Shown piece by piece: positions 10,642 through 62,317 of a stretch of 64,000 bases of DNA; position 1 is the stretch's first letter; every line of letters starts with the position of its first letter. The stretch covers positions 5,634,501 through 5,698,500 of the forward strand of contig NC_009656.1 of the NCBI RefSeq assembly GCF_000017205.1, written 5' to 3'. The position numbers and the translations under genes are program-made. Origin of the DNA: Pseudomonas paraeruginosa PA7. GTDB taxonomy: Bacteria; Pseudomonadota; Gammaproteobacteria; Pseudomonadales; Pseudomonadaceae. The notes beneath the pieces are model-generated. The model was not told the origin of the DNA. It ran no database searches and saw only the letters and a list, made by a program, of their open reading frames with translations.

Positions 10642-10660
10642 GGGACTCTCGTTGCAATAA

Positions 10661-16758: not shown

Positions 16759-17328
16759 TCAAGCCTGTTCGTCGATCGACGGCGGGGTTTCGCTCGGCGC
16801 CTTGCTCACCACGACCATCGCCGGGCGCAGCAGGCGACCGCTGATCAGGTAGCCTTTCTGGAACACCTTCAGCACGCTGCCGGGCTCGGCGGTCGCGCTC
16901 TCCTCCATCACCATCGCCTGGTGCTGCTCGGGATTGAAGGGCTCGCCCTCGGGGTTGATCGCCTCCACCTGGTAGCGGCGCAGGGTGTCGTCGAACATCT
17001 TCAGGGTCAGCTCCATCCCTTCGCGCATCGGCCTGATCGCTTCGTCGTCGGGATTGGACATCTGCAGGCCGCGCTCGAGGGTGTCGACCACCGCCAGCAG
17101 GTCGCCGGCGAACTTCTCCAGGGCGAACTTGTGCGCCTTCTCCACGTCCTGCTCGGCGCGGCGGCGCACGTTCTGCAGGTCGGCGACCAGGCGCAGGGAC
17201 TGGTCCTGGGCCGCGGCCAGTTGCTCTTCCAGTTCCTGCACGCGGGCGGTCAGATCCTTGGCTGCTTCCGGCGCATCGGTCTGCTCGGGGGCTTGCGGGT
17301 CCAGGGTCTGCTGCTGTTCGTCAGCCAT
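16759..17328 (-). CDS. grpE: Nucleotide exchange factor GrpE
   Basis: GrpE releases ADP from DnaK. The product is 189 residues from the ATG at 17328, which follows AAGGAG. It has an acidic/Gln-rich N-terminus, a long coiled coil (about 30-90) and the conserved [21 protein letters not shown] segment. The C-terminal beta domain contains [15 protein letters not shown] and [23 protein letters not shown]. It is the first gene after the sigma-32 promoter, so the order grpE-dnaK-dnaJ is a single heat-shock operon. Confidence 0.96.
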
Positions 17329-46266: not shown

Positions 46267-46887
46267 ATGCCATCGCGACTGTTGATCCTGCCGTTACTCG
46301 CCAGCCTGGCCGTACTCGCTGCCTGCCAGGGCGACAATCCCTATCGCGCCAGCGCCCTGCCCTACCCGCCGCAGCCGGCGGCGGCGGCCAATCCCGGCCT
46401 CGACCCCGGCGCCTACCCGGCGGCGCCGCGCGACTACGCCCGCTACCGCAGCTGGGACTGGGCCGCCGCCGGGGTCAGCGGCTTTCCCCAGGGCCTGGAC
46501 GACAACCAGCTACGCGACGCCGTCAGCCAGCAGCTCGATCAACGTGGCCTGCGTCCGGCGCGGCCGGGCACGGCCGCCGACCTGAAGGTCAGCGCCTTCC
46601 TGCGCAACGAGCTGCGCACCCGCCAGGTCACCGACTACTACGGCGGCTACTACGGCAACTACGGCGGCTGGCGCGATCCCTGGTACGGCTATGGCGCCAG
46701 CTACCCGGTGACCCGCAGCTACACCGTGCAGGTCACCGTGGTTCGCGTCGAGCTGGCCGACGCCCGCAGCGGCCAGCCGGTGTGGGGCAACAGCGCCGAG
46801 TTCGACTCCGGCGACTCCGCCAGCGAACAGGCCAAGGCCCTGCGCGAGGCGGTGAAGCGGGCGCTGTCGAACTACCCGCCGGGCTGA
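46267..46887 (+). CDS. DUF4136 lipoprotein with Tyr/Gly-rich insert (paralog 1)
   Basis: This 206-residue lipoprotein has signal MPSRLLILPLLASLAVLAAC with lipidated Cys20. A Pro/Ala-rich linker (about 30-55) precedes the DUF4136 domain: DYARYRSWDWA, DDNQLRDAVSQQLDQRGLRPA and ADLKVSAFLRN. A Tyr/Gly-rich insert (YYGGYYGNYGGWRD, about 124-137) precedes strands TVQVTVVRVELADARSGQPVWGNSAE. Function is unknown. It is related to the gene at 47936. The 3' end overlaps the convergent GDPD-like gene by 16 nt. Confidence 0.85.
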   Translation: MPSRLLILPLLASLAVLAACQGDNPYRASALPYPPQPAAAANPGLDPGAYPAAPRDYARYRSWDWAAAGVSGFPQGLDDNQLRDAVSQQLDQRGLRPARPGTAADLKVSAFLRNELRTRQVTDYYGGYYGNYGGWRDPWYGYGASYPVTRSYTVQVTVVRVELADARSGQPVWGNSAEFDSGDSASEQAKALREAVKRALSNYPPG

Positions 46888-47807
46888 TCGGCAAGCGCCC
46901 GGCGGCGGATCGCCTCCATCTTCCTCGGCGAGTTGGTCATCACCGCATCGGCCCCCAGGTCGCGCGCGGTGCGATAGTCCGCCGCGGTCTCGATGCCGAA
47001 CATCACCACCTTCACCGGCTCGCGACGTACGCAGTCCATCGCCTTGCGCGTCCACAACCGCGCCGCCGGCACCTGGTAGGACGACTCGCCGAGGGTGAAG
47101 CGCTCGGTCACGGTCAGTTCGCGGCGCAGCTCGATGCCCATCCAGGTGCCCGCGGCCGGCGGCGTCTCGCAGCGCTCGCCAAAGGCCAGGCCGACCAGGC
47201 GGTTGCGCGTGGCGTCGCGGCTTTCGAACTGCTGTGCCTTGTCCGCGTAGCGTCGCGCGAGGTAATCGTTGGCGGCCTTCTCGGTGGAATAGAAACGCAC
47301 CCGCGACCAGGCCTGCTGGAGCTCCAGCTCGCGGGCCACGGCGTCGACCAGCGGCTCCACCGGCACCGACTTCATGTCGAGGAACACCGGCACCTGCGGC
47401 GGGATCACCCGCAGCGCCTGGCGCAGCGTGGGGATCGGCAGCGGCTTCTGGCGATAGGGATAGCTGCCGTCCGCGGCCTTGAACATGTAGCCGGCGTTCA
47501 GCTGCGCCAGCTCGGCCAGGCTCGACTGGCCGACCGCGCCGGCGCCCTGGGTCAGCGCGGCGAGATCGGCCGGACGGTAGAGCACCGGATGGCCATCGGC
47601 GCTCAGCTGTACCGACAGCCACAGCGCATCGCTGCCGTTGTCCAGCGCCTTGCGGATCGCCAGCAGGGTGTTTTCCGGGTAGTCCGCGGTGCCGGCGCGA
47701 TGGGCCACCAGCAACGGGCCCGGCGCATCCGCTGGCGGTACCGAGCGCGCCTGCGCACATGCGGTCAGCGTCAGGCCGACGCAAAAGATCGCAACACTTC
47801 GATTCAT
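46872..47807 (-). CDS. GDPD-like lipoprotein lacking catalytic acids
   Basis: This 311-residue protein has a lipoprotein signal (MNRSVAIFCVGLTLTACAQA, Cys17). Its TIM-barrel domain resembles glycerophosphodiester phosphodiesterases: VAHRAGTADYPENTLLAIRKALDNGSD keeps the first His-Arg (36-37). But the metal-binding E-x-D reads W-x-S (LWLSVQ, 63-65), and the His of the usual HD is Arg (LYRP, 78). VFLDMKS keeps the Lys. Classical metal-dependent catalysis is therefore doubtful. The ATG at 47807 follows AGGGGAG. It is flanked by two DUF4136 genes. Confidence 0.85.
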   Translation of the reverse strand: MNRSVAIFCVGLTLTACAQARSVPPADAPGPLLVAHRAGTADYPENTLLAIRKALDNGSDALWLSVQLSADGHPVLYRPADLAALTQGAGAVGQSSLAELAQLNAGYMFKAADGSYPYRQKPLPIPTLRQALRVIPPQVPVFLDMKSVPVEPLVDAVARELELQQAWSRVRFYSTEKAANDYLARRYADKAQQFESRDATRNRLVGLAFGERCETPPAAGTWMGIELRRELTVTERFTLGESSYQVPAARLWTRKAMDCVRREPVKVVMFGIETAADYRTARDLGADAVMTNSPRKMEAIRRRALADQPGG

Positions 47808-47850
47808 ATCCACTCCCCTTCACCTGTATGGCGCTTTCGCACCGACGTTT

Positions 47851-47860
47851 TCTCTAGAGA
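47851..47860. promoter_or_regulatory. Palindrome in the GDPD-like/DUF4136 divergent promoter region
   Basis: TCTCTAGAGA, a 10-bp perfect palindrome inside a larger ACGTTT..ACGTTT direct repeat, in the 128-nt divergent gap. A regulatory role is speculative. Confidence 0.3.
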
Positions 47861-47935
47861 CGTTTCGACGCCGCGTTTCCTCTTGCCTTTCATCCGGCGC
47901 TGAGCTTGGATGTGAACTCTGACTGGAGAAAAACC

Positions 47936-48499
47936 ATGATCCGCCGAATCCTGCTGCTCGGCCTGTTCCTCAGCCTCGCAGCCTGCGAAACCACCCAGCT
48001 CGACCGCGACTTCGACAGTTCCCGTGACTTCGCCGCCTATCGCAGCTGGAGCTGGTCGCAACCCGCCTTCGAATACCGCCCCGACGATCCGCGCATCAAG
48101 AGCGACCTCACCGAGCAACGCATCCGCGAAGCCGTCGCCCAGCAGCTCGACCAGCGCGGCCTGCGCCCGGCGCAGGGCAACGCCAGGGGCGACGTCACGG
48201 TGCGCGCCTACCTGATCGTCGACGATCGCCAGGACCAGATCACCACCAACTACGGCGGCGGTTACTGGGGCGGCTACTGGGGAGGATACTGGGGCGGCCC
48301 GGCGATGGCCGAGACGCGCACCGTGAATTACAAGGTCGCCACCCTCCAGGTCGACCTGTTCGACGGCCGGGACGGCAAGCTGGTCTGGCGCGGCAGCGGC
48401 GAGCAGATCATGCGCACCAGCCCGCCGAGCCCGGCCGAGCGCGAGCAGGCGATCCGCGAGACGGTGCAGAAAATCATGTCGCAATACCCGCCGCGCTGA
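47936..48499 (+). CDS. DUF4136 lipoprotein with Gly/Tyr/Trp repeat (paralog 2)
   Basis: This 187-residue lipoprotein starts MIRRILLLGLFLSLAAC (lipidated Cys17). The DUF4136 domain follows: DFAAYRSWSWSQPAFEY, LTEQRIREAVAQQLDQRGLRPA and GDVTVRAYLIVDDRQDQI. An aromatic insert of repeated GGYW units (about 103-120) and TVNYKVATLQVDLFDGRDGKLVWRGSGEQIM complete it. The alignment with the protein at 46267 is clear, so the two are duplicates. It ends 1 nt before the GNAT gene; TGGAGA supports the start. Confidence 0.87.
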   Translation: MIRRILLLGLFLSLAACETTQLDRDFDSSRDFAAYRSWSWSQPAFEYRPDDPRIKSDLTEQRIREAVAQQLDQRGLRPAQGNARGDVTVRAYLIVDDRQDQITTNYGGGYWGGYWGGYWGGPAMAETRTVNYKVATLQVDLFDGRDGKLVWRGSGEQIMRTSPPSPAEREQAIRETVQKIMSQYPPR

Positions 48500-48500
48500 C

Positions 48501-48983
48501 ATGCAGCTCAGCCACCGCCCGGTGGAGACCGGCGACCTCGAAGCGGTCGTCGGCTTTCCCCAGGACCGCGACGAACTCTTCTACTGCTACCCCAAGGCGA
48601 TCTGGCCGTTCAGCATCGCCCAGCTGGCCGCCGCCATCGCCGAACGCCGCGGCAGCAACGTGGCCGTGCATGACGGGCGGGTGGTCGGCTTCGCCAATTT
48701 CTACCAGTGGCGACACGGCGACTTCTGTGCCCTCGGCAACATGATGGTGGCACCGGCCGCGCGCGGCCTGGGCGTAGCCCGCTACCTGATCGGGGTCATG
48801 GAAAACCTCGCCCGCGAGCAGTACAAGGCGCGCCTGATGAAGATCTCCTGCTTCAACGCCAATGCCGCCGGGCTGCTGCTCTACACCCAGCTCGGCTACC
48901 AGCCGCGCGCCATCGTCGACCGCCGCGACCCGGACGGCCGGCGCGTGGCGCTGATCCAGATGGACAAGTCCCTTGAACCCTGA
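48501..48983 (+). CDS. GNAT-family N-acetyltransferase
   Basis: This 160-residue acetyltransferase has the acetyl-CoA pyrophosphate-binding motif APAARGLGVARYLIGVM (the R-x-x-G-x-G/A pattern) and the C-terminal NANAAGLLLYTQLGYQPR. From memory the P. aeruginosa protein (PA4794) has been crystallised and shown to acetylate C-terminal lysines of peptides. The start is 1 nt after the DUF4136 stop. It overlaps the next gene by 11 nt, giving a compact operon with the DsrE-like and GcvH-like genes. Confidence 0.92.
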   Translation: MQLSHRPVETGDLEAVVGFPQDRDELFYCYPKAIWPFSIAQLAAAIAERRGSNVAVHDGRVVGFANFYQWRHGDFCALGNMMVAPAARGLGVARYLIGVMENLAREQYKARLMKISCFNANAAGLLLYTQLGYQPRAIVDRRDPDGRRVALIQMDKSLEP

Positions 48984-49350
48984 CACCCACGCCCAGCGCG
49001 TCCTCATCATCGTCTCCAGCGGCCCGAGCACCCCGGCCCGCTGCGCCGCGCCCTTCCACACCGCGACCCTGCTGGCCTGCATGGACGCCGAGGTGACCCT
49101 GTTCCTCAGCGGCGAAGGCGTGCAACTGGCGTGCCGCGCCGTCGCCGACCAGCTGCGTGCGCTGGACGGCGGCGAGCCGGTGCGCCACTTCATCCGCCAG
49201 GCCCGCGAGGCCGGCGCGCGCCTGCTGATGTGCCGCCAGCCGGGAGTGAGCATCGACGCAAGCGAACTGATCGAGGAACTCGACGAAATTTCCAGCGGCG
49301 GCGAGCTGGCGCGGCTGATCCTCGAGTCCGACCGGGTGCTGACCCTATGA
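48973..49350 (+). CDS. DsrE/F-like small sulfurtransferase-type protein, TTG start
   Basis: This 125-residue protein of DsrE/DsrF/TusD fold has the first strand QRVLIIVSSGPS, the helix TATLLACMDAEVTLFLSGEGVQLA and GARLLMCRQPG, with Cys87 in the position where DsrE-type sulfur carriers have their active Cys. The frame opens at a TTG (48973) overlapping the GNAT stop; no closer start fits, because the next ATG would delete the first strand. It overlaps the GcvH-like gene by ATGA. Confidence 0.8.
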   Translation: MNPDTHAQRVLIIVSSGPSTPARCAAPFHTATLLACMDAEVTLFLSGEGVQLACRAVADQLRALDGGEPVRHFIRQAREAGARLLMCRQPGVSIDASELIEELDEISSGGELARLILESDRVLTL

Positions 49351-49814
49351 GCCCGAACCTGCATGGCCTGGAATTCCCCGACGGGCTGTTCTACGCCCCG
49401 GACTACAACCTGTGGCTGCGCGAGGAGACCGACGGCAACCTGACCCTCGGCCTGAGCGCCTACGGCTGCGCGCTGTACGGCGAGATCTTCGCCTTCACCC
49501 CCAAGCGCGACGGCTGGCACATCGAGCGCGACCGCAGCTTCGGCGTGGTCGAATTCGCCAAGGCCGCCTCCTCGGCCCGCAGCCCGCTGGCCGGGACGCT
49601 GGTGGCGAGCAACGCGGCGGTGGTCAAGCGCCCGGCGCTGATCAACCGGGATTGCTACGGCGAGGGCTGGATGGTGCGGCTGCAACCGGACGACTGGGCT
49701 TCGGCGAAGGGCACGTTTCTCCAGGGAGAGGCGGCGCGGGAGGCATTCGCGGAGCGGATGCGGCTGGATGGGTTCGATCCGCAGCATCCGGGGGTGCAGG
49801 CGCTGGATTTCTGA
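49347..49814 (+). CDS. GcvH-like lipoyl-carrier protein
   Basis: This 155-residue protein aligns with glycine-cleavage H protein. NLTLGLSAYGCALYGEIFAF corresponds to the first barrel strands. GVVEFAKAASSARSPLAGTLV matches the lipoyl hairpin, with Lys72 at the lipoylated position. ALINRDCYGEGWMVRL matches the C-terminal LVNxxPYxxGW motif. The genes around it are not those of glycine cleavage, so it is likely a specialised lipoyl carrier working with the DsrE-like partner, as in the sHdr/LbpA sulfur systems (inference). Confidence 0.82.
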   Translation: MSPNLHGLEFPDGLFYAPDYNLWLREETDGNLTLGLSAYGCALYGEIFAFTPKRDGWHIERDRSFGVVEFAKAASSARSPLAGTLVASNAAVVKRPALINRDCYGEGWMVRLQPDDWASAKGTFLQGEAAREAFAERMRLDGFDPQHPGVQALDF

Positions 49815-49847
49815 GATTCCCCGGGCTTACTCGCACTCTGCATGATC

Positions 49848-49877
49848 GGCGGATAACGTCGCTGGCGTTATTCGCCC
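49848..49877. repeat. REP-like intergenic palindrome, copy 3
   Basis: GGCGGATAACGTC-GCT-GGCGTTATTCGCCC, the same element as at 28786 and 39750, 34 nt after the GcvH-like stop. Confidence 0.75.
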
Positions 49878-49928
49878 CACCCCAGGTTCCCATCATCTCC
49901 AATCTCCCGAATCTCTCCGGAGCCCGCC

Positions 49929-50165
49929 ATGCCCCCACCCCAACCGCCCCGCTTCGACGGCCAACGCTGGAGCAACGCCGACGACGCCCGCCTCTATGCC
50001 GAAACCAAGCATGCCTTGGCCCGCCGCCACCCGACCGACCGCGAGGCCTACACCCGTGGCAAGGACGAAGTCGTCGCACGGATTCTCGGCCGGGCGCTGG
50101 CGCCAAACGACACCGTCGCTAACGGTGGTCGCGAAGGAAGCACGATTCAGGGCGCGAGGGGCTGA
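49929..50165 (+). CDS. Small hypothetical protein
   Basis: This 78-residue frame starts MPPPQPPRFDGQRWSNADDARLYAETKHALARR. The first 58 residues have the codon bias of a real gene and an amphipathic helical pattern. The last 20 (from PNDTVANGG) look less biased, as if the C-terminus had been replaced or frameshifted. There is no recognised domain. An ATG at 49929 is preceded by CCGGAG. Confidence 0.5.
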   Translation: MPPPQPPRFDGQRWSNADDARLYAETKHALARRHPTDREAYTRGKDEVVARILGRALAPNDTVANGGREGSTIQGARG

Positions 50166-50275
50166 TATCGCCTTGATGAATCTTTCCGACAATACCCCCG
50201 GCGATTTCCCCGCGGCTCACGCCCGGGGAGAACCTCCACCGTTGTGCTCCATCCCGAGCTTCATGCCGAATTCAT

Positions 50276-50305
50276 GGCTGCCGGCCCGGTCGCGAACCGG
50301 CAGCC
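50276..50305. terminator. Hairpin after the TM-protein gene
   Basis: GGCTGCCGG / CCGGCAGCC, a 9-bp stem with a 12-nt loop, lies between convergent genes. It has no T tract. Confidence 0.35.
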
Positions 50306-50308
50306 CGC

Positions 50309-50842
50309 TCACTCGCGGAATTGCAGTCCGATACGGGCTCGGCAGGCGCGTCTCTCCAGACTGCCTTCCTTGAAAGCGCCGCAGGCGCGATCCTTCAAAG
50401 GCAGCGCCTGCTCGACCACGCTCACCCGCACCCTGTTCGCGGGTTGCCGCCGCTCGGCGGGTCGCGGCGCCTGGCGCAGGCTGAGCAGGTTGTCGGCCCC
50501 GCGTGGCTGGTAATTGCCATCGTTGTATACGGTCTGGCGCATGGCGGGAGCGGCGCTTTCCTCGATGGCCTGCGGCAGGGTGCTGGTGTTGCGCCGCGCC
50601 ACCTCCTCGACGATCCTGTCCCCGTCCTTTCTCACGGCCGGGTCTTCGTCCCGCAGCGCCGGCCGGTTGCCATCCTCGGCCACCAGCGGGCTGGCGCCCG
50701 CCCGGAACAACGCCCCCGCCGCCAGCAGCGCCGCCAGGGTGATGCCGCCACCAATCGCCGCGAATACCAGCCAGCCGGCGCCCACCCCTTGCCGGGAAGC
50801 GCGCCCGAGACGTGCCGGCGCGTCGCTGCGATCCGCCCGCAT
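50309..50842 (-). CDS. Hypothetical single-pass membrane protein
   Basis: This 177-residue protein has an Arg-rich cytoplasmic start, one membrane helix (about 24-46, AGWLVFAAIGGGITLAALLAAGALF) and a charged extracytoplasmic part. The tail ends in LKDRACGAFKEGSLERRACRARIGLQFRE, with two cysteines that could form a disulfide. No family is recognised. The ATG at 50842 is 2 nt after the stop of the gene upstream, so the two are an operon. Confidence 0.65.
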   Translation of the reverse strand: MRADRSDAPARLGRASRQGVGAGWLVFAAIGGGITLAALLAAGALFRAGASPLVAEDGNRPALRDEDPAVRKDGDRIVEEVARRNTSTLPQAIEESAAPAMRQTVYNDGNYQPRGADNLLSLRQAPRPAERRQPANRVRVSVVEQALPLKDRACGAFKEGSLERRACRARIGLQFRE

Positions 50843-50844
50843 GC

Positions 50845-51285
50845 TCAGTAGAGCCCGGTGGCGCTGCCCGGCTCGAACAACGGCACCTGGTTGGCCAGGA
50901 TCATGTTGTAGCTGAGCATGAACGGCACCCCGCCGTCGCCTTCGACGATCTGGCTGACCCAGCCGATGGGGTTGTTGAACAGCGATTCGTCGGGGCTGAG
51001 CACGCCGACGGCGGCGCTGTCCGGGTCGCCGTCCCAGGTCACGTCGCTCCAGTGCCAGCCGAGGCCACGCACATACTGCGCCCCGAGCAGCGCGCCGAGG
51101 GCGAAGACCGCCTCGTCGTCGAGGCTGCGCCCCTGCTCCCTCGCATCGCGCACGTAGTCGGTGACGGCGGCGACGATCTGCGCCGGCGTCTCGTCCGCGG
51201 CGACGCCGAGCAAGGCGAGCCCCTGTGTCTGCAAGTCCGCCAGTTGCTGTTGCAGGTCCGTTGAAAGCGGATTGATCTCGGCCAT
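50845..51285 (-). CDS. Hypothetical protein, possibly DUF3806-like
   Basis: This 146-residue soluble, acidic protein contains DEAVFALGALLGAQYVRGLGWHW and SLFNNPIGWVSQIVEGDGGVPFMLSYNMI, which resembles the DUF3806 pattern (helix plus conserved GW and N-P). Identification is tentative and function unknown. It is the first gene of a two-gene operon with the membrane protein downstream. The start at 51285 is supported by a leader with GGGA. Confidence 0.6.
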   Translation of the reverse strand: MAEINPLSTDLQQQLADLQTQGLALLGVAADETPAQIVAAVTDYVRDAREQGRSLDDEAVFALGALLGAQYVRGLGWHWSDVTWDGDPDSAAVGVLSPDESLFNNPIGWVSQIVEGDGGVPFMLSYNMILANQVPLFEPGSATGLY

Positions 51286-51487
51286 CCCTGTTCTCCCGAG
51301 GCAAGCGTGCGCACCCGTCCGTCGGGCGCGCCATGAAGCGCGTTATCTTACGGCTTCGCGCCGGCAAAAGCGCCCATCCCATGGCACCTGGCGGAACCGC
51401 CGAGCCAAACGCAGCGCAGTCGCCTCTTCCCGGTCACGCCGCCTTGGGCTCTACTGGCGACTCTACGCCCCTGCCCGAGACAGCCCC

Positions 51488-52118
51488 ATGTCACTGATTG
51501 CCGCCGCCCAGAGCCGCGCCCACCCCGCCGACCTGCCGCGCAACCTGGTCGACCACCTGCGCCTGCTGGTGTTTCCCGAACTGTCGCTCACCGGCTACGA
51601 ACCCACCGCTGCCGCTGCGCTCGCCGAAGCACGCCAAGCCGCTGATCGCCGCCCTGGTCCTCGGCGCCGACGGCAGCCTCGGCGTCTATGCCAAGCAGCA
51701 CCTGCACCCGGGCGAAGAGCGCCATTTTTCAGCCGGCGAAGGCGGCCCACTGCTGGAGATCGACGGCCTGCCGGTGGCGCTCGCGGTATGTGCCGACTTC
51801 AGCCAGCCCAGCCACCCGGCCCACGCCGCCCGTGCCGGCGCTCGCCTCTACATCGCCAGCGCGCTGATCGGAGAAAACGGCTACCCGGCCGACTCGGCCC
51901 TGCTCGCCGGTCATGCCCGCGAGCACGGAATGGGCGTGCTGCTGGCCAACCATGGCGGGCCGACGGGTGGCTGGAAGGCGGCGGGCAGGAGTGCGTTCTG
52001 GAATGAGCGGGGGGACCTGCTCGGGGAGGTGCCAAGGACGGGGGATGCGCTACTTCTGCTGGAACGGGCCGAGAGAGGCCGGCTCGATCGTGGCTACGAG
52101 AGATCCTCTGATGGCTGA
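51488..52118 (+). pseudogene. Decayed carbon-nitrogen hydrolase (nitrilase family)
   Basis: The family's three catalytic residues are all present but in two frames. Frame A from the ATG at 51488 encodes MSLIAAAQSRAHPADLPRN and LLVFPELSLTGYEPT (catalytic Glu31). About 51,630 the similarity jumps to another frame with KPLIAALVLGADGSLGVYAKQHLHPGEE (Lys) and LAVCADFSQPSH (Cys), continuing to 52118. Compared with intact relatives, segments before LLVFPELS and between Glu and Lys are missing, so at least one out-of-frame deletion has occurred. It is unlikely to make a working enzyme. Confidence 0.75.
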
Positions 52119-52142
52119 ACACGGGAAAGTGCTAATATTTTC

Positions 52143-52157
52143 TGGCAAATTTTGCCA
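52143..52157. promoter_or_regulatory. Palindromic operator of the ParD/ParE operon
   Basis: TGGCAAA-T-TTTGCCA is a perfect inverted repeat 19 nt upstream of the antitoxin ATG, in an AT-rich promoter region. It is a typical autoregulatory site for an RHH antitoxin. Confidence 0.7.
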
Positions 52158-52176
52158 TTCCAGAGAGACTGGTCCC

Positions 52177-52413
52177 ATGAGCACGATGAACATTTCCCTG
52201 CCGGATACGCTCAAGAGCTTCGTCGATGAGCAGGTCAGCCAGCGTGGTTACGGCACCAGCAGCGAGTACGTGCGCGAGCTGATTCGCAAGGATCAGGACC
52301 GTCAGCGTCTGCGGGGCCTGCTGATCGCCGGCGCCGAGTCGATGCCTGCGGCGCCTGCCGACGATGACTATTTCGAATCGCTCCGCACACGGGTGCATAA
52401 GGCCCGTGGATGA
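52177..52413 (+). CDS. parD: ParD-family antitoxin
   Basis: This 78-residue ribbon-helix-helix protein starts STMNISLPDTLKSFVDEQVSQRGYGTSSEYVRELIRKDQDR, the classic ParD DNA-binding N-terminus. A short acidic C-terminal tail (PADDDYFESLRTRV) would bind and neutralise the toxin. It overlaps the toxin start by ATGA. Expected to repress its own promoter through the palindrome at 52143-52157. Confidence 0.9.
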   Translation: MSTMNISLPDTLKSFVDEQVSQRGYGTSSEYVRELIRKDQDRQRLRGLLIAGAESMPAAPADDDYFESLRTRVHKARG

Positions 52414-52745
52414 AGGCCAAGCCAGTCATTCCGCGAGTACTCGCCAATCAGGATGTTGAAGCGGCCGTCGATTACTACCTGAGCGAAGACGCCGAACAGG
52501 CCGCTCCGGGTTTTGTCGGCGCCCTGGAAAAGGCATACGCCCATATCGCCCGTCACCCTGGCAGCGGCTCGTCCCGCTATGCCCATGAGCTGGATTTGCC
52601 GGGACTGCTTTGCTGGCCACTCAAGCGCTATCCCCACCTGGTGTTCTACGTCGAACGCGACGACCACATCGACGTATGGCGTGTCCTGCACGGCATGAAC
52701 GACATCCCTTCCTGGATGCAGGCTGGTGAGGGCGTATCGCACTGA
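52410..52745 (+). CDS. parE: ParE/RelE-superfamily toxin
   Basis: This 111-residue protein has the ParE/RelE fold pattern: VIPRVLANQDVEAAVDYYLSEDAEQAAPGF, ALEKAYAHIARHPGSGSSRYA, then the strands PLKRYPHLVFYVERDDHIDVWRVLHGMNDIP. ParE members inhibit DNA gyrase, and the partner ParD supports that subgroup. It is located 81 nt from the tRNA-Sec gene, a likely accessory insertion. Confidence 0.88.
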   Translation: MKAKPVIPRVLANQDVEAAVDYYLSEDAEQAAPGFVGALEKAYAHIARHPGSGSSRYAHELDLPGLLCWPLKRYPHLVFYVERDDHIDVWRVLHGMNDIPSWMQAGEGVSH

Positions 52746-52826
52746 AAGTCTTTCGACACCGGCATCGAGCCGCCGTCCCGGACTGAGCCGGAAGCCTGGA
52801 GCCACGCCGGCTGTGGACAGGGGATA

Positions 52827-52922
52827 TGGCGGAAGGCAGTGGGAGTCGAACCCACCCAGGAACGGCTGCCGTCCCCCACCGGATTTGAAGTCCGGCCACG
52901 CCACCGGGCGTGATTGCCTTCC
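52827..52922 (-). tRNA. selC: tRNA-Sec (anticodon UCA)
   Basis: Minus-strand gene, 96 nt including an encoded CCA. The acceptor arms GGAAGGC and GCCTTCC are followed by G73 and CCA. The anticodon arm is GGACTTCAAATCC with anticodon TCA. The T arm reads GGGTGGGTTCGACTCCCACT. The long acceptor/T stack and the long variable arm (about GGGGACGGCAGCCGTTCC) are features of selenocysteine tRNA. It lies next to selB-selA. Confidence 0.95.
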
Positions 52923-53130: not shown

Positions 53131-55056
53131 TCAGGACGTGGACCCACCGAGCAACTGTTCGGCCAGCGCCGAGCCCTCACGTAGGCGGCGGTCATTGCCG
53201 ATGCGGCGGGTCAGGCCGATGCGGTCGAAATGCTCGAGGATCTGGATGCTGCGCTTGCGGCCGATACCCAGGCGGTCGCGGAACTCCGCCGGACGGATCA
53301 GCCCGGACGGGTCGCGCACCTGCAGAGCGATCCCGGCCAACTGGCGCAGGGTGGCCTCCGGGTAAAACAGGTCGCGCACCACCTGCTGCACCTGGCCCAG
53401 GCGCGCCAGCTTGCGCAACAGGTGGCGCATGGCGGCTTCGTCCTGGCCCAGCTCGCGAGCCAGGTCGCGGACCCAGGGCGGGTCGTAGCGGCCGGCTTCG
53501 AGCAATGGCCAGAGGCGCGCGCGCAACTGTTCCTCGCTGTCGCTCAGGCGTACCTCGTGGCCGGGCAGGTGCAGCCAGGGGCCGCTGCTGTGCACGTCGC
53601 CGCCGGCCAGGGCGGCCTCCAGCAGGGCGATGAACACCGGCCGCTCGAGCTGCGGCAGGGCATAGCGGCGCAGGCGGTCGCGGTCTGGGCCGAGTTCGTC
53701 CGGCAATTCCTCATGGAAGCGCCGCAGGCCGGCGAGCAGTCGCTCGACCAGGGCGAACCAGCGCTCGCCGGCGAACAGCCGCGGGCCGAGGCGGGTCTGT
53801 ACCTCGACCATCTCCTCCGGCAGCCGCCAGTGCTCGCGCGGGCGGTTGAACAGTTGCACCAGGCGTTGCGGATCGAGGCCGTTCTCGGCGGCGCCGAGCA
53901 GGGTCGGCAGCGCCTCCTCCAGGCTGTCCTGGCGCAGCGCCTGGAGTTGCGCCAGACGCGCCGGGGTTCGCCGGTTGCGCGCCGGCGCGGCGCTGTCGAG
54001 CACCCGTCCGCCGCCGAGGGTGCGCTGCGCCGACTGGTCGCGCAGCACCAGGCGATCGCCGTGCAGGGCCTGGATCGGCGCGTTCAGCACCAGTTGGGCG
54101 AAGGCGCGATGGCCAGGTTCCAGTTGCTCGCCCTCGAGCAGGGCCAGGCGCCCGGTGACGTCCTGGGTCCCCAGGTGCAGGTGCACCGGGGTCCAGTGGG
54201 TGAAGTCGCGGAGTTCGTCGGGGAGCAGGCGAAAGTCGATGTCGACCCGCGTGGTCGGCGCGTGCAGCGCTGCCTGCAGCAGCCAGTCGCCGCGCTGGAC
54301 CTGCTCCAGCGCGAGGCGCTCGCCGGCGATGTTCAGGGCCACGCGCTGGCCGGCCCAGGCCTGTTGCGCGGGCCGGTTCTGCGCGTGCAGGCCGCGCACC
54401 CGCACCGGCCGCCCGGCGTTGCCGAGGAGCAGTTCATCGCCCACCGCGACCTGTCCGGAGAAGGCCGTGCCGGTGACCACGATGCCGCTGCCGGCGACGC
54501 TGAAGGCCCGGTCCACCGCCAGCCGGAAATACCCTTCGCGGCCGCGCTCGCGGACTTCGCCGGCAAGCCCGCGCAGAGCCTCGCGCAACGCCGCCACGCC
54601 CTCACCGCTGCTGCTGGAGAGCGGAAAGATCGGCGAGCGCGCCAGCGGTCCGGAGGCCAGCAGGTGCTCGACCTGGATCTGCACCTGCTGCACCCGCTGC
54701 GGCTCGACCCGGTCGATCTTGGTCAGCGCCACCAGTGCCCGGCGGATACCGAGCAGCTCGACAATCGACAGATGCTCGCGGGTCTGCGGCATCAGGCCGT
54801 CGTCGGCGGCCACCACCAGCAGCACGCAATCGATGCCGCTGGCGCCGGCCAGCATGTTGTGGACGAAGCGCTCGTGGCCGGGCACGTCGATGAAACCGGT
54901 GGGGCTGCCATCGCCGAGGTCGGCGTACAAATAGCCGAGGTCGATGGTGATGCCGCGCTGGCGCTCGGCCGGACGGCGGTCGCCTTCGATCCCGGTGAGG
55001 GCGCGCAGCAGCGAGGTCTTGCCGTGGTCGATATGCCCGGCGGTGCCGACGATCAC
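53131..55056 (-). CDS. selB: Selenocysteine-specific elongation factor SelB, GTG start
   Basis: SelB delivers Sec-tRNA to UGA codons marked by a SECIS hairpin. The 641-residue protein starts at a GTG (55054-55056): [15 protein letters not shown] with the G1 loop at 4-15. [12 protein letters not shown] and [20 protein letters not shown] (G3) follow, then VALTKIDRV (G4). The C-terminal half holds winged-helix repeats, with the last ([40 protein letters not shown]) contacting SECIS RNA. The GTGA overlap with selA indicates coupling. Confidence 0.97.
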
Positions 55057-56459
55057 GACAGTTCGCCCCGCAGCCGCGGCAACTGGGCGCGGAACGCAGG
55101 CTCGTCGTCGAGCTGGCGCAGGTCGAGCCAGAGGGCGTCGTCGTCGAGCCGGCCGATCACCGGCAGCGGCAGGCCGCGCAGGGCTTCCTCGAGGTTGCGC
55201 AGGGTGCGTCCGCGCAGGCGCCTGGGCTGCCTCGGACGCAGGCACAGCGCGGCGCTGGCCAGCCGCGCCACCGGCTGCGCGCCGCTGCCGATCATGCCCA
55301 GGGCGTCGACCACGGCGACCTCCCAGTCCTCGCCGAGCGCTTCGGCCAGCGCCGGCGCCAGCCGCTCGGCCTGGGCGCGGATCTCGACCGCCGGACGGCT
55401 GAGCAGGCGCAGGGTGGTCAGGCGTTCGGCGAGGCGATCGGGATCGCGGTACAGGCCGAGCACCGCCTCGAGGGCGGCGAGGGTCAGCTTGTCGACGCGC
55501 AGGGCGCGCTTGAGCGGGTTCTTCTTGATCCGTCCGACCAGTTCGCGGTTGCCGAGGATCAGCCCGGCCTGGGGCCCGCCGAGCAATTTGTCGCCGCTGA
55601 AGGTGACGATGTCGGCGCCGTCGGCCAGGGCTTCCTGCACCGTCGGTTCCTTGGGCAGGCCCCAGCGGGTCAGGTCCACCAGGGTGCCGCTGCCGAGATC
55701 TTCCAGCAGCGGCAGGCCGTGGCCATGGGCGATGGCCGCCAGTTGCGCGGTGGGCACGCTGGCGGTGAAGCCCTGGACGCTGTAGTTGCTGGTGTGTACG
55801 CGCATCAGCAGGCCGCTGCGCGGGCCGATGGCGGCTTCGTAGTCCCGGGCGTGGGTGCGGTTGGTGGTGCCCACCTCGTGCAGGCGCACGCCGGCGCGGG
55901 TCATGATGTCGGGAATGCGGAAGGCGCCGCCGATCTCGATCAGCTCGCCGCGCGAGATGATCCCTTCCTTGCGCGCCCCCAGGCTGTTCAGCGCCAGCAG
56001 CACCGCCGCGGCGTTGTTGTTGACCACGGTGACCGCCTCGGCGCCGGTGAGCTCGCGGATCAGTCCGGTGATCAGGTCGTCGCGGTCGCCACGCTTGCCG
56101 CTGGCCAGGTCGAACTCCAGGTTCAGCGGGTAGCGCGCGGCGAGGGTGATCGCCTCGATGGCCTCTTCCGGCAACAGGGCCCGGCCGAGGTTGGTATGCA
56201 ACACCGTGCCGGTCAGGTTGAACACCCGCCGCACGCGGCTGGCATGCTGCGCGGCGAGGCGTTCACCGGCACGGCCGGCGAGCACCGCCTCGCTCAGCTC
56301 GATCGCGGCGAGGGCGCCCTGGCGAGCCGGCTCGCGCAGTTCGTCGAGCAGGTCGCGGAGGGTCGCCAGCAGCGCCTCGCGGCCGTAGCGCTGGTGCAGG
56401 GGAGCGGCCGCCGCGCTACGCAGCAGGCGGTCGACCGAAGGCAAGCGAACGGAACTCAT
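55053..56459 (-). CDS. selA: L-seryl-tRNA(Sec) selenium transferase SelA
   Basis: SelA is a decameric PLP enzyme converting Ser-tRNA(Sec) to Sec-tRNA(Sec) using selenophosphate. The 468-residue product has [46 protein letters not shown] and the PLP lysine in [14 protein letters not shown] (Lys291). It starts at the ATG at 56459 and overlaps selB by 4 nt. selD (selenophosphate synthetase) is not in the window. Confidence 0.97.
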
Positions 56460-56538: not shown

Positions 56539-57468
56539 CTATTCGCCGCCGGGGGCCAGCAGAAGGTTGGGCGAACGCCGCAGGTAGCCATCCTCGGCCA
56601 GGCGCATGTCCAGCGCCAGGCTGGCCAGGTCGTCGGCGAGAGCATCGGCGTGACGGTCGAATTCCAGGTAGAACTGCTTCAGGTAGCCCTGGCAACCGGG
56701 GCAGGTCTCGGCGCGCAGCACGGCCTTTTCCGCCGGCTGCCCGTCATGCTCCAGGGACAGGTAGGCCAGGTGCTTGCTTTCCTCGCAGTGGCTGCACTTG
56801 ATCCGCACGTAGTGCCATTCGCAGGCGCACAGCGAGCAGCTCAGGTAGCGCAGGCCGGTTTCCTTGCCGCCCTGGCGGATCATCCCGGCCATCGGTGGCG
56901 AGCCGCAGGCGGGGCACAGGGTCCGGCTCTCGGTCTCGACCACCGCGCCCTCCTCCAGCCCCAGCAGCCAGTGGCTCCAGGCTACCTGCAGGGCGGCGCC
57001 GAGGAACGGCACCAGGGCCGCCGGCAGGAGGTCGAACTGACCGCTGAGCAGGGCGATGGCCCAGGCCTTGCGCTGGCCTTCGTCGGCTTCGCGCAATTGT
57101 TCGAGTGCCGCGCCGACGGCGGCGTTGGCCGGCGCCGGGTAGCCCGCGAGCAGGGCATCCAGCCAGGGCAGCCAGGCGCCTTCGCGCACCAGCAGGTCAT
57201 AGGCCAGCGGCGGCATGCCGTGCTCGCGACTCTTGCGCAGGCGCTCGGGATCGAGCGGGGCCAGCGCCGGCGGGTTGTCCAGCAGCGCCTGCTGGAGCTG
57301 GCAGAGACCGGCGACCAGGCGCAGGTAGTCGCCCATCGGGTGCCCATCGGCCAGTTGCAGCAGGCGCTCGCCACGGCGGGCGAACAGGTCGCGCGACGGC
57401 TGGTGCAGGTGCGGGGGAATGTTGGCGGCGGCTTCGATCTGCCCCGGTTGAAGAATGGTGCGTGACAC
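56539..57468 (-). CDS. fdhE: Formate dehydrogenase accessory protein FdhE, GTG start
   Basis: FdhE is a cytoplasmic factor needed for assembly/activation of respiratory formate dehydrogenases. The 309-residue protein begins at a GTG behind CGAGGAG: V/M-SRTILQPGQIEAAANIPPHLH. The C-terminal half carries zinc-ribbon type CxxC pairs (CPACGSPPMAG, CSLCACEWHYVRIKCSHCEES, CPGCQGYLKQFYLE). It sits between selA and fdnI, separated from fdnI by a hairpin. Confidence 0.95.
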   Translation of the reverse strand: MSRTILQPGQIEAAANIPPHLHQPSRDLFARRGERLLQLADGHPMGDYLRLVAGLCQLQQALLDNPPALAPLDPERLRKSREHGMPPLAYDLLVREGAWLPWLDALLAGYPAPANAAVGAALEQLREADEGQRKAWAIALLSGQFDLLPAALVPFLGAALQVAWSHWLLGLEEGAVVETESRTLCPACGSPPMAGMIRQGGKETGLRYLSCSLCACEWHYVRIKCSHCEESKHLAYLSLEHDGQPAEKAVLRAETCPGCQGYLKQFYLEFDRHADALADDLASLALDMRLAEDGYLRRSPNLLLAPGGE

Positions 57469-57600: not shown

Positions 57601-58227
57601 TCAGTGCTCCTCGCCCTTGCCGACTTCCTTCAGCCAGCCGTTGTGGTGCTTGCGCGCCCAGGCGCGGCTGACCTTGCCGTAGAGCATCGCGCCCATCGAG
57701 CCCTTGACCCAGATGCCGGCATAGATGTGCACGATGATGCTGGCGATCAGGACGAAGGCGGCGAAGGCGTGCAGCAGCGCCGACAGGCGGATCGCCTCGA
57801 TGCCGAACCAGGCGCTGAAGTACTGGCGCCAGATCACGATGCCGGTGACCAGCAGGGTCAGCATGCTCAGCAGCAGCACCCAGAACAGCAGTTTCTGCCC
57901 GGCGTTGTAGCGGCCGACTTCCGGGAGGTTCTCCTCGCGGTTGCTGACCACGTCGCGCCACTGCCTGAGCCACTGGATATCGCTCTTCTGCACCCGGTTG
58001 TGATGGGCGAAGCGCACCACCAGGCCGAGAAAGAAGACGAACATCGCCAGCCCCAGGAAGGGGTGCAGGATACGCGTCCAGGGCCCGCCGCCGAACAGGT
58101 TGGTCAGCCAGAACAGCGCCGGGTGGAACAACGCCAGACCGGACAGCCCGGCCATGAAGAACAGGATCGCCACGGCCCAGTGGTTGCTGCGCTCGTTGGC
58201 GTTGTAGCGCTGGATTTCATTTTTCAT
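57601..58227 (-). CDS. fdnI: Formate dehydrogenase cytochrome b556 (gamma) subunit
   Basis: This 208-residue inner-membrane di-haem cytochrome b passes electrons from FdnH to quinone. It has four helices: about 17-35 (NERSNHWAVAILFFMAGLSGL), 52-72 (LHPFLGLAMFVFFLGLVVRFAHH), 112-132 and 150-172 (LHAFAAFVLIASIIVHIYAGIW). The His residues in these helices are haem ligands. MKNEIQRYNANER at 58227 follows GAGGAG. Confidence 0.95.
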   Translation of the reverse strand: MKNEIQRYNANERSNHWAVAILFFMAGLSGLALFHPALFWLTNLFGGGPWTRILHPFLGLAMFVFFLGLVVRFAHHNRVQKSDIQWLRQWRDVVSNREENLPEVGRYNAGQKLLFWVLLLSMLTLLVTGIVIWRQYFSAWFGIEAIRLSALLHAFAAFVLIASIIVHIYAGIWVKGSMGAMLYGKVSRAWARKHHNGWLKEVGKGEEH

Positions 58228-58298: not shown

Positions 58299-59228
58299 TC
58301 AACGACGCTCGTGCGGGTCAAAGGTGTGTACCGACGGATCGACCTGGTGCACCGGTGCCTCGGCTTGCCCGTGGTCTTCCTCGTCGTCCGCGCGGTTGGG
58401 GCCGACGCGCACGTAGTGGAAGAACCCGGCGAGCACCGTGGCACCCATGGCCAGCAGCGCCAGCGGCTTGGTCACGCCCTTCCACAGGCTGACCATCGGA
58501 CTGACGCTCGGCTGCTCGGCGAGGCCGGCGTAGAGCGACGGCTTGTCGGCATGGTGCAGCACGTACATCACGTGGGTGCCGCCCACCCCTTCCGGGTCGT
58601 ACAGGCCGGCGTTCTCGTAGCCGCGACTCTTCAGGTCGACGATGCGCTCGGCGGCGTGCTCCTTCATGTCCTCCTTGCTGCCGAAGACGATGGCGCCGGT
58701 CGGGCAGGTCTTCACGCAGGCCGGCTCCATGCCCACCGAGACGCGGTCGGAACACAGGCTGCACTTGTAGGCCTTGTGGTCCTTCTGCGAGATCCGTGGG
58801 ATGTCGAACGGGCAACCGGTGATGCAGTAGCCGCAGCCGATGCACTTGTCCTGGTTGAAGTCGACGATGCCGTTGGCGTACTTCACGATCGCCCCCGGGC
58901 TCGGGCAGGCCTTCAGGCAGCCCGGCTCGGCGCAGTGCATGCAGCCGTCCTTGCGGATCAGCCACTCGAGGTTGCCGGCCTCGTTCTCGTGCTCGGTGAA
59001 GCGCATCACCGTCCACGAGTCGGCCGTCAGGTCCTGCGGGTTGTCGTAGGTGCCGTGGTTGTGGCCGACCTCGTCGCGCAGCTCGTTCCATTCCGAGCAG
59101 GCGACCTGGCAGGCCTTGCAGCCGATGCACTTGGACACGTCGATCAGTTTCGCCACTTCCTGCTGGTTCCGCACCGAGGGCATCGGCGTGGTGGTTGCGG
59201 AGCGGGCGTGGATGTCCTGACTACTCAT
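58299..59228 (-). CDS. fdnH: Formate dehydrogenase iron-sulfur (beta) subunit
   Basis: This 309-residue subunit has four 4Fe-4S clusters wiring FdnG to FdnI. Ferredoxin-type motifs are [50 protein letters not shown] and [26 protein letters not shown] single C-terminal membrane helix (about 250-270, [19 protein letters not shown]) anchors it. It starts 8 nt after the fdnG stop. Confidence 0.96.
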
Positions 59229-59236: not shown

Positions 59237-62200
59237 TCACGCCTTTTCCACGTTGACCAGGAACGACTTGAACTCCGGCGTCTGGGTGTTCCCGTCGCCC
59301 ACGAAGGGGGTCAGGGTGTTGGCCAGGAAGCCGTTGCGCGCCATGCCGGCGAAGCCCCAGTGGATCGGGATGCCGACGTGGTGCACGGTCTTGCCGTCCA
59401 CCTGCAGCGGGCGGATGCGCTTGGTCACCACCGCCACCGCCTTGATGTAGCCGCGGTTGGAGGAGACCTTGACCTTGTCGCCGGCATTGATGCCCAGCTC
59501 CTTGGCCAGCGCCTCGCCGATCTCGACGAACTGCTCGGGCTGGGTGATCGCGTTCAGCCGGCAGTGCTTGGTCCAGTAGTGGAAGTGCTCGGTGAGCCGG
59601 TAGGTGGTCGCCGCGTAGGGGAACTCGTCGGCCGTGCCGAACAGCTCCATGTCGTTCTTGAACACCCGCGCCGCCGGGTTGCTGATCGCCTTGCGGTTGT
59701 CGCGGTGCAGGGGGTTCACCCCGATCGGCGTCTCGAACGGCTCGTAGTGCTCGGGGAACGGGCCTTCGGCCATCTTGTCGACGGCGAACAGGCGGGCCAC
59801 CCCTTCGGGGTTCATGATGAACGGGTTCATCCCGGCTTCCGGCGGTACGTCGGCCTTGTAGTCGGGCACGTCGGTGCCGCCCCAGGACTTGCCGTTCCAC
59901 CACACCAGGCGCTTCTTCTCCGGGTCCCACGGCTTGCCGCTGAGGTCGGCCGAGGCGCGGTTGTAGAGGATCCGCCGGTTCGCCGGCCAGGCCCAGGCCC
60001 AGCCGAGGGTCTGGCCCATGCCGTAGGGGTCGCTGTTGTCGCGGCGCCCCATCTGGTTGCCCTGCTGGGTCCAGGAGCCGGCGAAGATCCAGCAGCCGCT
60101 CGCCGTGCTGCCGTCGTCGCGCAGCAGGGCGAAGCCCGGCAACTGCTCGCCGGCCTTGGCCAGGATCATGCCGTTGGCCGGGTCGACCAGGTCGCTCAGG
60201 GCCTTGCCGTTGAATTCCCGGGCCAGTTCGTCCGGGCCCGGCTCGTCGGGCTTGAGGTAGGACCAGTCGAGGCCGAGGATCGGGTCGGGGAAGGCCCCGC
60301 CGTCCTTGCGGTACATCTCGCGCAGGCGGTGGAACAGCCCGGCCATGATGGCGATGTCCGGCCGCGCCTGGCCCGGCGGCTCGGCACCCTTCCAGTGCCA
60401 CTGCAACCAGCGACCGCTGTTGACGATCGAGCCATCCTCCTCGGCGAAGCAGGAGGTGGGCAGGCGGAACACGGTGGTCTTGATGCTGGCGGTGTCGACG
60501 TCGTTGTACTCGCCGACGTTGCGCCAGAACTCCGAGGTCTCGGTCACCAGCGGGTCCATCACCACCATCCACTTCAGGCGCGCCAGCGCGGCGCCGACCT
60601 TGGCCTTGTTGGGGAACGAGGCGATGGGGTTGAAACCCTGACAGAAGTAACCGTTGACCTTGCCCTGGTACATCATGTCGAAGTAGCGCAGCACGTCGTA
60701 GCCGGCGCCCGGCATGTCGAGCTTGGGCAGCCAGTCGTAGCACCAGTTGTTTTCCCTGGTCGCCGACTTGCCGAACCAGGCCTTCATCAGGCTGACGTGG
60801 AACTTGCCGTAGTTCTGCCAGTAGGACAGCTGTCCCGGGCGCAGCGGCTTGGCCGTGCGCTTGGCGATGTAGGCGTCGTAGTCCTGCTCGGCGTCCATCG
60901 CCAGGGTCAGGTAGCCCGGCAGCGAGTTGGACAGCAGGCCGAGGTCAGTCAGGCCCTGGATGTTGGAGTGGCCGCGCAGGGCGTTCATGCCGCCGCCGGG
61001 CATGCCGATGTTGCCCAGCAGCAACTGGACCATCGCGCCGGTGCGGATCATCTGCGCGCCCACCGAGTGCTGGGTCCAGCCCAGGGCGTACATGATGGTC
61101 ATGACCTTGCCCGGCTTGGAGGTCTCGGCGATTTCCGCCCAGACCTTGAGCATCATGTCCTTCGGCGTACCGCAGATGTTGCTCACCACGTCCGGGGTGT
61201 AGCGGCTGTAGTGCTGCTTGAGCAGGTTGAACACGCAGCGCGGGTGGGTCAGGGTCGGGTCGACCTTGGCATAGCCGTCCTCACCGATCTCGTAGCCCCA
61301 GGAGGACTTGTCCGGATAGGTCCGCTTCTCGGCGTCGTAGCCGTTGAACAGGCCGTCCTCGAAGCTGAAGCCTTCCTTCACGATGAACGAGACGTCGGTG
61401 TAGTTGCGCACGTATTCATGCTGGATCTTGTCGTTTTCCAGCAGGTAGTTGATCAGGCCGCCGAGGAAGGCGATGTCGGTGCCGGTCCGGATCGGCGCGT
61501 AGTAGTCGGCGACCGAGGCGGAACGGGTGAAACGCGGATCGACCACCAGCAGCCGCGCCTTGTTGTGCGCCTTGGCTTCGGTGACCCATTTGAATCCGCA
61601 CGGGTGGGCTTCGGCGGCGTTGCCGCCCATGATCAGCACCAGATCGGCATTCTTGATGTCGGTCCAGTGGTTGGTCATGGCTCCACGGCCAAACGTCGGG
61701 GCAAGACTTGCCACCGTCGGGCCGTGTCAGACACGCGCCTGGTTGTCGAATCCCAGGATGCCGAGGGAACGCATCACCTTGTGGGTGATGTAGCCGGCCT
61801 CGTTGGACGAGGCGGACGCGGCGAGGAAGCCGGTGGTCAACCAGCGGTTGACGGTCTGGCCCTGCTCGTTCTTCTCGACGAAGTTGGCGTCGCGGTCTTC
61901 CTTCATCAGCTTGGCGATGCGCTCGAGGGCTTCGTCCCACTCGATGCGCTTCCACTCGCTGGAGCCGGCCTCGCGGACTTCCGGATATTTCAGGCGGTTC
62001 GGGCTGTGGATGTAGTCCAGCAGGCCGGCGCCTTTCGGGCAGAGAGTGCCGCGATTGACCGGATGGTCGGCGTCGCCCTCGATATGGATGATGTTCTGCG
62101 CGACGTTCTTGGCGCCGTCGCCCTGGCTGTACATGATCAGGCCGCAGCCGACCGAACAGTAGGTACAGGTGTTGCGGGTCTCGACCGTGTGCGCCAGCTT

Positions 62201-62317
62201 GAAGTGGCGGACCTGGTCGGCGAAGGCCTCGGTGGGGGCCATTCCGAGCGCCGCAAGGCTCGATCCTCCAAGGCCTATACCGCAGACCTTGAAGAATTGC
62301 CGACGGTTCATATCCAT
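59237..62317 (-). CDS. fdnG: Selenocysteine-containing formate dehydrogenase catalytic (alpha) subunit
   Basis: This periplasmic molybdopterin enzyme oxidises formate. Read through an in-frame TGA (61727-61729) as selenocysteine it is 1026 residues. The Tat signal is MDMNRRQFFKVCGIG. The 4Fe-4S motif Cys51-x2-Cys54-x3-Cys58...Cys93 follows (CTYCSVGC, TLCPKGAGLLDY). Selenocysteine is at residue 197, in the context NQARV-U-HGPTVASL with the conserved His next to it. MGD-binding segments continue to the C-terminal VGIPIHWGF. Without readthrough only a 196-residue stub would be made. First gene of fdnGHI. Confidence 0.96.
61684..61726 (-). promoter_or_regulatory. SECIS element directing selenocysteine insertion in fdnG
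   Basis: Directly after the TGA, CACGGCC pairs perfectly with GGCCGTG. Inside it GGCAAG and CTTGCC form the upper stem with an apical AAGUCUU-type loop containing the G-U that SelB recognises. The position, right behind the UGA, matches bacterial SECIS hairpins. Confidence 0.85.

Follow-up and report, generated by a model that had tools for sequence, protein, structure and literature searches.

Lipoyl carrier proteins paired with DsrE-family proteins are known from the sHdr system of sulfur oxidation, in which genes for an LbpA2-type lipoyl carrier and a DsrE protein stand side by side. Another protein with the H-protein fold, GcvH-L of Streptococcus pyogenes (PDB 5a35), is reportedly encoded in a macrodomain/sirtuin operon. 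The LbpA of sHdr is reportedly not modified by E. coli, and the nearest characterised relatives of the gene pair described here carry sulfur, according to PMC6067878. A DsrE domain has also been tied to selenium: PMC5322559 connects YedF/FdhU, in which SirA and DsrE are combined, with selenium and with the biogenesis of formate dehydrogenase, a precedent for a DsrE domain in the biogenesis of selenium-dependent formate dehydrogenase. No report tying a GcvH-like or lipoyl protein to selB or selC was found in the open-access literature searched, as far as the texts were available. In their accessible portions, four selenium-gene papers (PMC5322559, PMC13188914, PMC9312934 and PMC2432076) mention DsrE and gave no match for lipoyl, GcvH or glycine-cleavage, while the word Pseudomonas is absent from two LbpA papers (PMC6067878 and PMC10332631), the latter also being without words in selen-.

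The locus analysed here lies in a window of 64,000 nucleotides (the whole stretch of DNA that was analysed) from the genome of Pseudomonas paraeruginosa PA7, a single contig of 6,588,339 bases. The original prediction had described three genes overlapping head to tail in this window, and the same coordinates and overlaps (11 nt between the first and second genes, 4 nt between the second and third) were recovered, as follows.

48501..48983, plus strand: GNAT acetyltransferase, ortholog of PA4794 (Acetyltransf_1, 1.4e-13; PDB 3pgp, E 6.1e-101)
48973..49350, plus strand: DsrE-family predicted carrier with a TTG start (Pfam DsrE, 3.2e-16), the Cys87 codon at 49231-49233
49347..49814, plus strand: GcvH-like predicted lipoyl carrier with an ATG start (GCV_H, 4.7e-25), the Lys72 codon at 49560-49562, in VEFAKAAS

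Start codons in the computed gene calls were chosen by rule, and under this choice the DsrE gene starts with TTG in relatives of the same genus as well.

A search across 244 genomes of the order gave matches only in the window's own genus (4 genomes, E up to 1e-24). Within that genus a strong ortholog of the GcvH-like gene is present in 24 of 25 genomes, G017 being without it, and across the window's family, Pseudomonadaceae (f1), the gene occurs in 38 of 148 genomes (E < 1e-60), with one decayed copy in addition. We fetched 40 family loci (L055-L074 and L095-L114), covering 34 of these 38 genomes, the decayed copy and five additional loci from the genus. In all 40 the GcvH-like gene has the DsrE gene next to it, and the pair is intact in 39, the remaining copy (L074) being decayed; a gap of about 140 bases separates the two genes in L059 and L114. 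The GNAT gene adjoins the pair in only 21 of the 40. Thus, of the co-conservation proposed for the three genes, the part concerning the DsrE and GcvH-like genes stood and the part concerning the GNAT gene did not, and the conserved unit is the two-gene pair. The decayed copy belongs to genome G032, which keeps selB on another contig.

Both residues on which a carrier function was predicted to depend proved to be conserved among orthologs: among 41 aligned sequences (the window and the 40 loci), 40 retain Lys72 of the GcvH-like protein and 40 retain Cys87 of the DsrE protein, L074 being the exception for both. Across all three groups aligned, Lys72 is invariant in 22 GcvH-like sequences and Cys87 in 15 DsrE sequences; Cys24 is not invariant. 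The predicted alignment with the glycine-cleavage H protein was likewise borne out, Lys72 aligning with the lysine of solved H proteins. The two models predicted, built from 22 and 19 sequences, have mean pLDDT values of 90.2 and 91.3. In that of the GcvH-like protein, residue 72 is placed at the tip of a beta-hairpin between strands 64-70 and 73-78, and in that of the DsrE protein Cys87 ends strand 83-87, positions that would be expected for working carriers. The GcvH-like model matches best PDB 3ab9, the lipoylated E. coli H protein, and matches the GcvH-L structure, despite the common H-protein fold, less well than 21 H-protein chains; a macrodomain/sirtuin operon of the GcvH-L type was not seen among the annotated neighbours. 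The DsrE model matches best PDB 3mc3 (TM 0.83), followed by other DsrE/DsrF and DsrEFH chains, and the DsrE protein scores 60 bits against a cut-off of 22.7 for the DsrE/DsrF family (PF02635), with both the fold and the strand-end cysteine present.

The likeness of the pair to sHdr lies in the same two families side by side, with the same lysine and the same cysteine. When the window's GcvH-like protein was searched against 369 genomes of the class, matches of a second tier showed about 36-46% identity over residues 5-144, and 17 of the first 20 such loci fetched had hdr genes around (two cut by contig ends), with the DsrE gene adjoining an LbpA2-type gene in the same 17. The relatives found first outside the family therefore lie in sHdr loci, in line with the precedent invoked originally. 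A second set of 20 loci, 14 of them from the class and 6 from a search of the phylum, comprised seven with hdr genes, ten with dsrE3A or lipoylation genes and no hdr gene in the stretch, two with neither, and one selenocysteine locus (L075). The labels hdr, lbpA, dsrE3A, LipS, sLpl and LipT denote what we take these genes to be from gene order and recall, and the LipS1-type protein gave a radical-SAM match only, just below the cut-off.

By contrast, two sHdr components sought genome-wide do not accompany the pair. Neither sHdrB1 nor sLpl, the sHdr lipoate ligase, was found in any of 22 pair-bearing genomes including that of the window (15 genera; 14 genomes from Pseudomonadaceae and 8 from a second family, introduced below), whereas both were found in two of two sHdr control genomes; the absence of sHdr stated in the original prediction is thereby supported. 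Moreover, no hdr, sLpl or LipS gene lies within the fetched stretches of 80 loci from named genomes. The neighbours differ as well, hdr genes there and selB and selC beside the pair, and so does the lysine motif, which is VEFAKA in Pseudomonadaceae, VEL[AS]KS in the second family and ESGKW in most sHdr LbpA2 proteins.

A maximum-likelihood tree of 129 proteins (40 GcvH-like proteins from Pseudomonadaceae, 21 from Burkholderiales, 19 LbpA1, 34 LbpA2, 5 other LbpA-like and 10 GcvH, with L074 left out and the LbpA1 and LbpA2 labels assigned from motif and score) placed the 40 and the 21 together on one branch with support of 97/89. These 61 selenium-linked proteins lie apart from LbpA1, LbpA2, the five LbpA-like proteins and GcvH, and the pair's GcvH-like protein belongs to neither the LbpA1 nor the LbpA2 clade. 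The ten GcvH proteins are on one side of a branch with 100/100 support; their join to the selenium-linked clade, its neighbour in the midpoint drawing, has 92/72 only and involves long branches. By its sequence, then, the lipoyl-type protein of the pair is a branch of its own. True membership in sHdr was rejected on the separate clade and on the missing sHdrB1 and sLpl matches in 22 of 22 genomes.

Among the LbpA-like proteins seen outside the pair, those of L082, L089, L094, L091 and L093 are without the lipoyl lysine at its usual place (ESLVWVG, ESQVWVG, ETKDWVG and ETRDWVG), and in L082, L089 and L094 the gene adjoins one of dsrE3A type. Judged from these motifs, they are possibly carriers that lost lipoate.

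At a distance of 3 kb, the window also contains a selenocysteine and formate dehydrogenase locus, all of whose genes are on the minus strand and point toward the pair.

52827..52922, minus strand: selC, tRNA-Sec (ARAGORN)
53131..55053, minus strand: selB, start approximate (TIGR00475, 472.5 bits, cut-off 242.25)
55053..56459, minus strand: selA (TIGR00474, 592.4 bits)
56539..57468, minus strand: fdhE (TIGR01562, 508.6 bits)
57601..58227, minus strand: fdnI, formate dehydrogenase gamma subunit (TIGR01583, 202.5 bits)
58299..59228, minus strand: fdnH, formate dehydrogenase beta subunit (TIGR01582, 475.8 bits)
59237..62317, minus strand: fdnG, selenocysteine formate dehydrogenase alpha subunit (TIGR01553 on both sides of an in-frame TGA)

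The in-frame TGA of fdnG is at 61727-61729, in RV*HGPTV. About 3 kb of extra genes (49815-52826) separate selC from the pair, and the stretch contains a C-terminal fragment of GrpB at 49929-50165 and, by eye, a ParD/RelE-type toxin-antitoxin pair at about 52034-52745.

The same association recurs elsewhere. In genome G742 (L075) the pair follows fdnI-fdhE-selA-selB, and in the family of this genome (f109, which we take to be Burkholderiales), the second family mentioned above, the GcvH-like gene is present in 17 of 200 genomes from 13 genera. Of the 17 loci of this family, 15 include selB in the stretch retrieved and 14 include fdhE or fdnI; the two without selB (G1123 and G1243, from one genus) have it at distances of about 15 and 29 kb. 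For Pseudomonadaceae, with stretches of at most 7.5 kb, 16 of the 40 loci include selB, which otherwise lies farther off or on another contig; it is 27 kb from the pair gene in G008 and about 714 kb away in G094, both genomes keeping both. A scan of named genomes with the pattern VVEL[AS]KSIV gave loci mostly from Burkholderiales genera (Rubrivivax, Hydrogenophaga, Roseateles, Brachymonas, Comamonas, Piscinibacter and others), some being assigned only to Pseudomonadota or uncultured. For the best 80 of 82 such loci, selB is in the stretch in 74 (within 322 bp of the pair in 59 of them) and outside it in 6, and DsrE is somewhere in the stretch in all 80 and within 400 bp in 76. The presence of VEL[AS]K in 80 of 80 is biased because of the scan pattern. 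The DsrE cysteine is found in 79 of 80 (76 by pattern and 3 by eye), the match in L198 ending before the cysteine.

The arrangement around tRNA-Sec is equally regular. The tRNA gene lies between selB and the pair in 15 of 15 Pseudomonadaceae loci chosen for having selB in view and in 15 of 17 loci of the second family. Across the 88 loci with tRNA-Sec, the pair is on the 3' side of selC in every one and co-directional with selC in 81. In the window's own family the order is dsrE-lbpA, convergent with selB, whereas in the second family it is selB-selC-lbpA-dsrE, mostly co-directional; the linkage thus persists despite a gene order flipped between the two groups. The proposed "lipoyl/sulfur carrier" accordingly needs to be amended: the co-conserved pair with Lys72 and Cys87 kept stands, and it is better read as a selenocysteine-linked carrier, given the sel and fdn genes 3 kb away and their recurrence as partners. 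A neighbourhood search for DsrE and GcvH-like pairs, which the original prediction had suggested, returned a co-conserved pair with selenocysteine and formate dehydrogenase genes as its recurrent partner. Twelve selB loci without the pair (L131-L142) contain sel and fdh genes, and the window's upstream neighbours appear in L140 and L141, the query genes of the analysis being the ones sought.

For the co-occurrence counts, which include some incomplete genomes, presence was scored for the GcvH-like gene and for selB, the latter by its curated cut-off. In Pseudomonadaceae (148 genomes), 38 carry both, 60 carry selB alone, 50 carry neither and none carries the GcvH-like gene alone; the corresponding numbers in the second family (200 genomes) are 17, 33, 150 and 0. 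All 55 genomes bearing the GcvH-like gene thus carry selB, with selB itself in 98 of 148 and 50 of 200 genomes, and the GcvH-like gene is found in none of the 200 genomes without selB over the cut-off (50 and 150 in the two families). In each of the 52 of these genomes whose loci were inspected (all but G008, G019 and G021), the DsrE gene adjoins the GcvH-like gene. Fisher tests gave 1e-8 and 5e-12 for the two families with relatives treated as independent, and the counts are not independent because linked genes can be lost together. In a tree of 38 SelB sequences, presence of the pair needs only 5 changes, the tree retaining 38 of 51 sequences after 13 under 350 residues (translated from the match start) were dropped, among them L140-L142, which are three of the four loci from the window's family that have no pair. 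One genus (g18) includes five genomes with both genes and seven with neither, some incomplete. In the two families, then, the pair follows selB, whereas selB often occurs without the pair: 93 of 148 selB-bearing genomes lack it (60 of 98 and 33 of 50), indicating that the pair is not essential for selenocysteine as such.

YedF/FdhU (TIGR03527) resembles the DsrE half of the pair in being a DsrE-type protein tied to selenium and formate dehydrogenase, according to PMC5322559, and differs in joining SirA to DsrE, whereas the partner of the window's DsrE protein is a lipoyl-type carrier. An NCBIfam search with the latter DsrE protein gave no match at E 0.1. Replacement of the pair by YedF where the pair is absent was considered and rejected: TIGR03527 was over its cut-off in none of 80 genomes (44 with the pair and 36 without), and also in none of 14 controls, so that the search has no positive control. 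YedF thus does not explain presence or absence of the pair.

The association of the pair with selenocysteine genes is an observation, from which we infer its cargo and mechanism. The DsrE and GcvH-like proteins may well form a two-gene carrier module serving the selenocysteine system, either its synthesis or its formate dehydrogenase; the chances of this reading seem to us about even. Selenium would most likely be the cargo on Cys87, with sulfur less likely. A more specific proposal, which we put forward tentatively and regard as possible but doubtful, is a lipoic-acid-based selenium delivery from a perselenide on Cys87 of DsrE to the lipoyl arm and, as protein-bound selenide or selenotrisulfide, to SelD. 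Lys72 of the GcvH-like protein would be lipoylated by the ordinary LipB/LipA route, Cys87 would take up the chalcogen as a persulfide or, most likely, a perselenide, and the dihydrolipoyl arm of the GcvH-like protein would reduce or accept the chalcogen bound to Cys87. Selenide would then be handed on from this arm, most likely to SelD, and lipoamide dehydrogenase would recharge the arm. Under selenium shortage, such a pair would hold reactive selenide in bound form and separate from sulfide. Selenide is toxic and sensitive to oxygen, and how it arrives at selenophosphate synthetase without being outcompeted by sulfide is, to our knowledge, still debated; a small, deletable module of two genes close to tRNA-Sec, offering a single lysine and a single cysteine for mutation, would make selenide delivery directly testable. 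If correct, the proposal would provide a defined selenide donor in bacteria and would add a third role of protein-bound lipoate to those in carbon metabolism and sulfur oxidation.

The chalcogen might instead be sulfur, with the pair relaying sulfane sulfur for the molybdenum site of formate dehydrogenase (the FdhD step) and being linked to sel genes via that enzyme. This would suit the presence of fdnGHI and fdhE in the same locus of the window, the frequency of fdhE or fdnI in loci of the second family and the sulfur cargo of the nearest characterised relatives. However, molybdenum formate dehydrogenases without selenocysteine also need FdhD, and the GcvH-like gene is missing from every one of the genomes without selB over the cut-off in both censuses. 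We consider this reading unlikely.

Position alone might also account for the linkage, because the pair always lies 3' of selC, where insertions often land, and because extra genes are found there in the window. The 3' side of selC is a typical place for mobile insertions and may be an insertion site here. On this account, a general sulfur carrier pair would have settled at a hot spot without serving selenocysteine, which would fit the roughly 3 kb of additional genes that separate the pair from selC, and the many selB-bearing genomes that have no pair. Against such a passenger, the pair was not found without selB in the 348 genomes of the two families, and pair and selB are both kept where they are far apart (G094, G008, G1123 and G1243). 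The same linkage, moreover, appears in two families with flipped gene order, and the strand of the pair agrees with that of selC in nearly all loci with tRNA-Sec. A positional passenger is accordingly a slightly weaker candidate than the relay of sulfur to formate dehydrogenase.

Handling of excess reactive selenium or sulfur, that is, selenium or selenite redox chemistry and detoxification instead of supply to SelD, would suit a lipoyl dithiol and a DsrE cysteine, and flavoprotein and nitroreductase genes are near some pairs. The pair is restricted to selB-bearing genomes in both censuses, however, and detoxification would not need selA or selB, which makes this role improbable.

In the original prediction the GNAT enzyme was a member of the operon and could act on the carrier lysine. 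This part is not supported. The genes do overlap in the window; however, the partial adjacency in family loci given above, together with locus L141 (G034), which has the GNAT gene and the selB neighbourhood without the pair, makes the GNAT gene a local neighbour outside the conserved unit, and as a member of that unit it was rejected since co-conservation fails. PA4794, whose one sequence alone accounts for 18 PDB entries, acts on a C-terminal lysine with a free carboxylate, according to PMC4964394, whereas Lys72 is internal, and acetylation of the carrier lysine by this enzyme is very improbable. The window's GNAT protein is the ortholog of PA4794 and differs from what a partner would show in lacking co-conservation with the pair. 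PMC12893005 and PMC8768829 describe PA4793 and PA4792 as a DUF4136 protein and a phosphodiesterase, so that the pair should be PA4795/PA4796 in PAO1. In the window a glycerophosphodiester phosphodiesterase gene stands between two DUF4136 genes (46267-48499); in several relatives, e.g. L056 and L057, the phosphodiesterase gene had no match at that place.

Least probable of all is that the gene encodes an additional glycine-cleavage H protein, the third of this genome, a reading that score and tree led us to reject. The protein shares the fold of PDB 3ab9 and, in alignments and the predicted model, a lipoyl-type lysine in the hairpin, but scores 71.1 bits against a cut-off of 115.85 (TIGR00527), falls outside the GcvH clade, has other neighbours and coexists with two other, higher-scoring H proteins in the same genome. 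No gene for a P- or T-protein is present among the annotated ORFs at 44.2-50.2 kb and 53.1-62.3 kb of the window, in agreement with the original remark that none is nearby.

Several other genes were seen around the pair in 97 loci (the 17 of the second family and the 80 named, some genomes being in both sets). Of 47 loci with a nitroreductase-family gene, L127 (8340-8927) among them, 35 have it no more than 500 bp from the pair; one of 8 selB loci lacking the pair has it as well. A flavoprotein resembling flavocytochrome-c sulfide dehydrogenase, with, by eye, a Tat-like start, is encoded in 23 loci (in L121 at 15311-16780). In 17 of them its gene separates selA from selB, and none of the 8 selB loci without the pair contains it. 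After dsrE in L075 there is a DUF2478 gene (10494-11024), with a relative in 2 of the 97 loci. A phosphonate-type ABC transporter, consisting of a PF12974 binding protein, an ATPase and a permease, is encoded at 10174-13428 of L130, with counterparts at 14259-15134 of L121 and in other loci. Of the 97 loci, 24 contain the gene for the binding protein (some genomes entering twice); it separates selA from selB in 7 of them and is no more than 500 bp away from dsrE in 11. One of the 8 selB loci without the pair has it too. This transporter is a candidate importer of selenium oxyanions.
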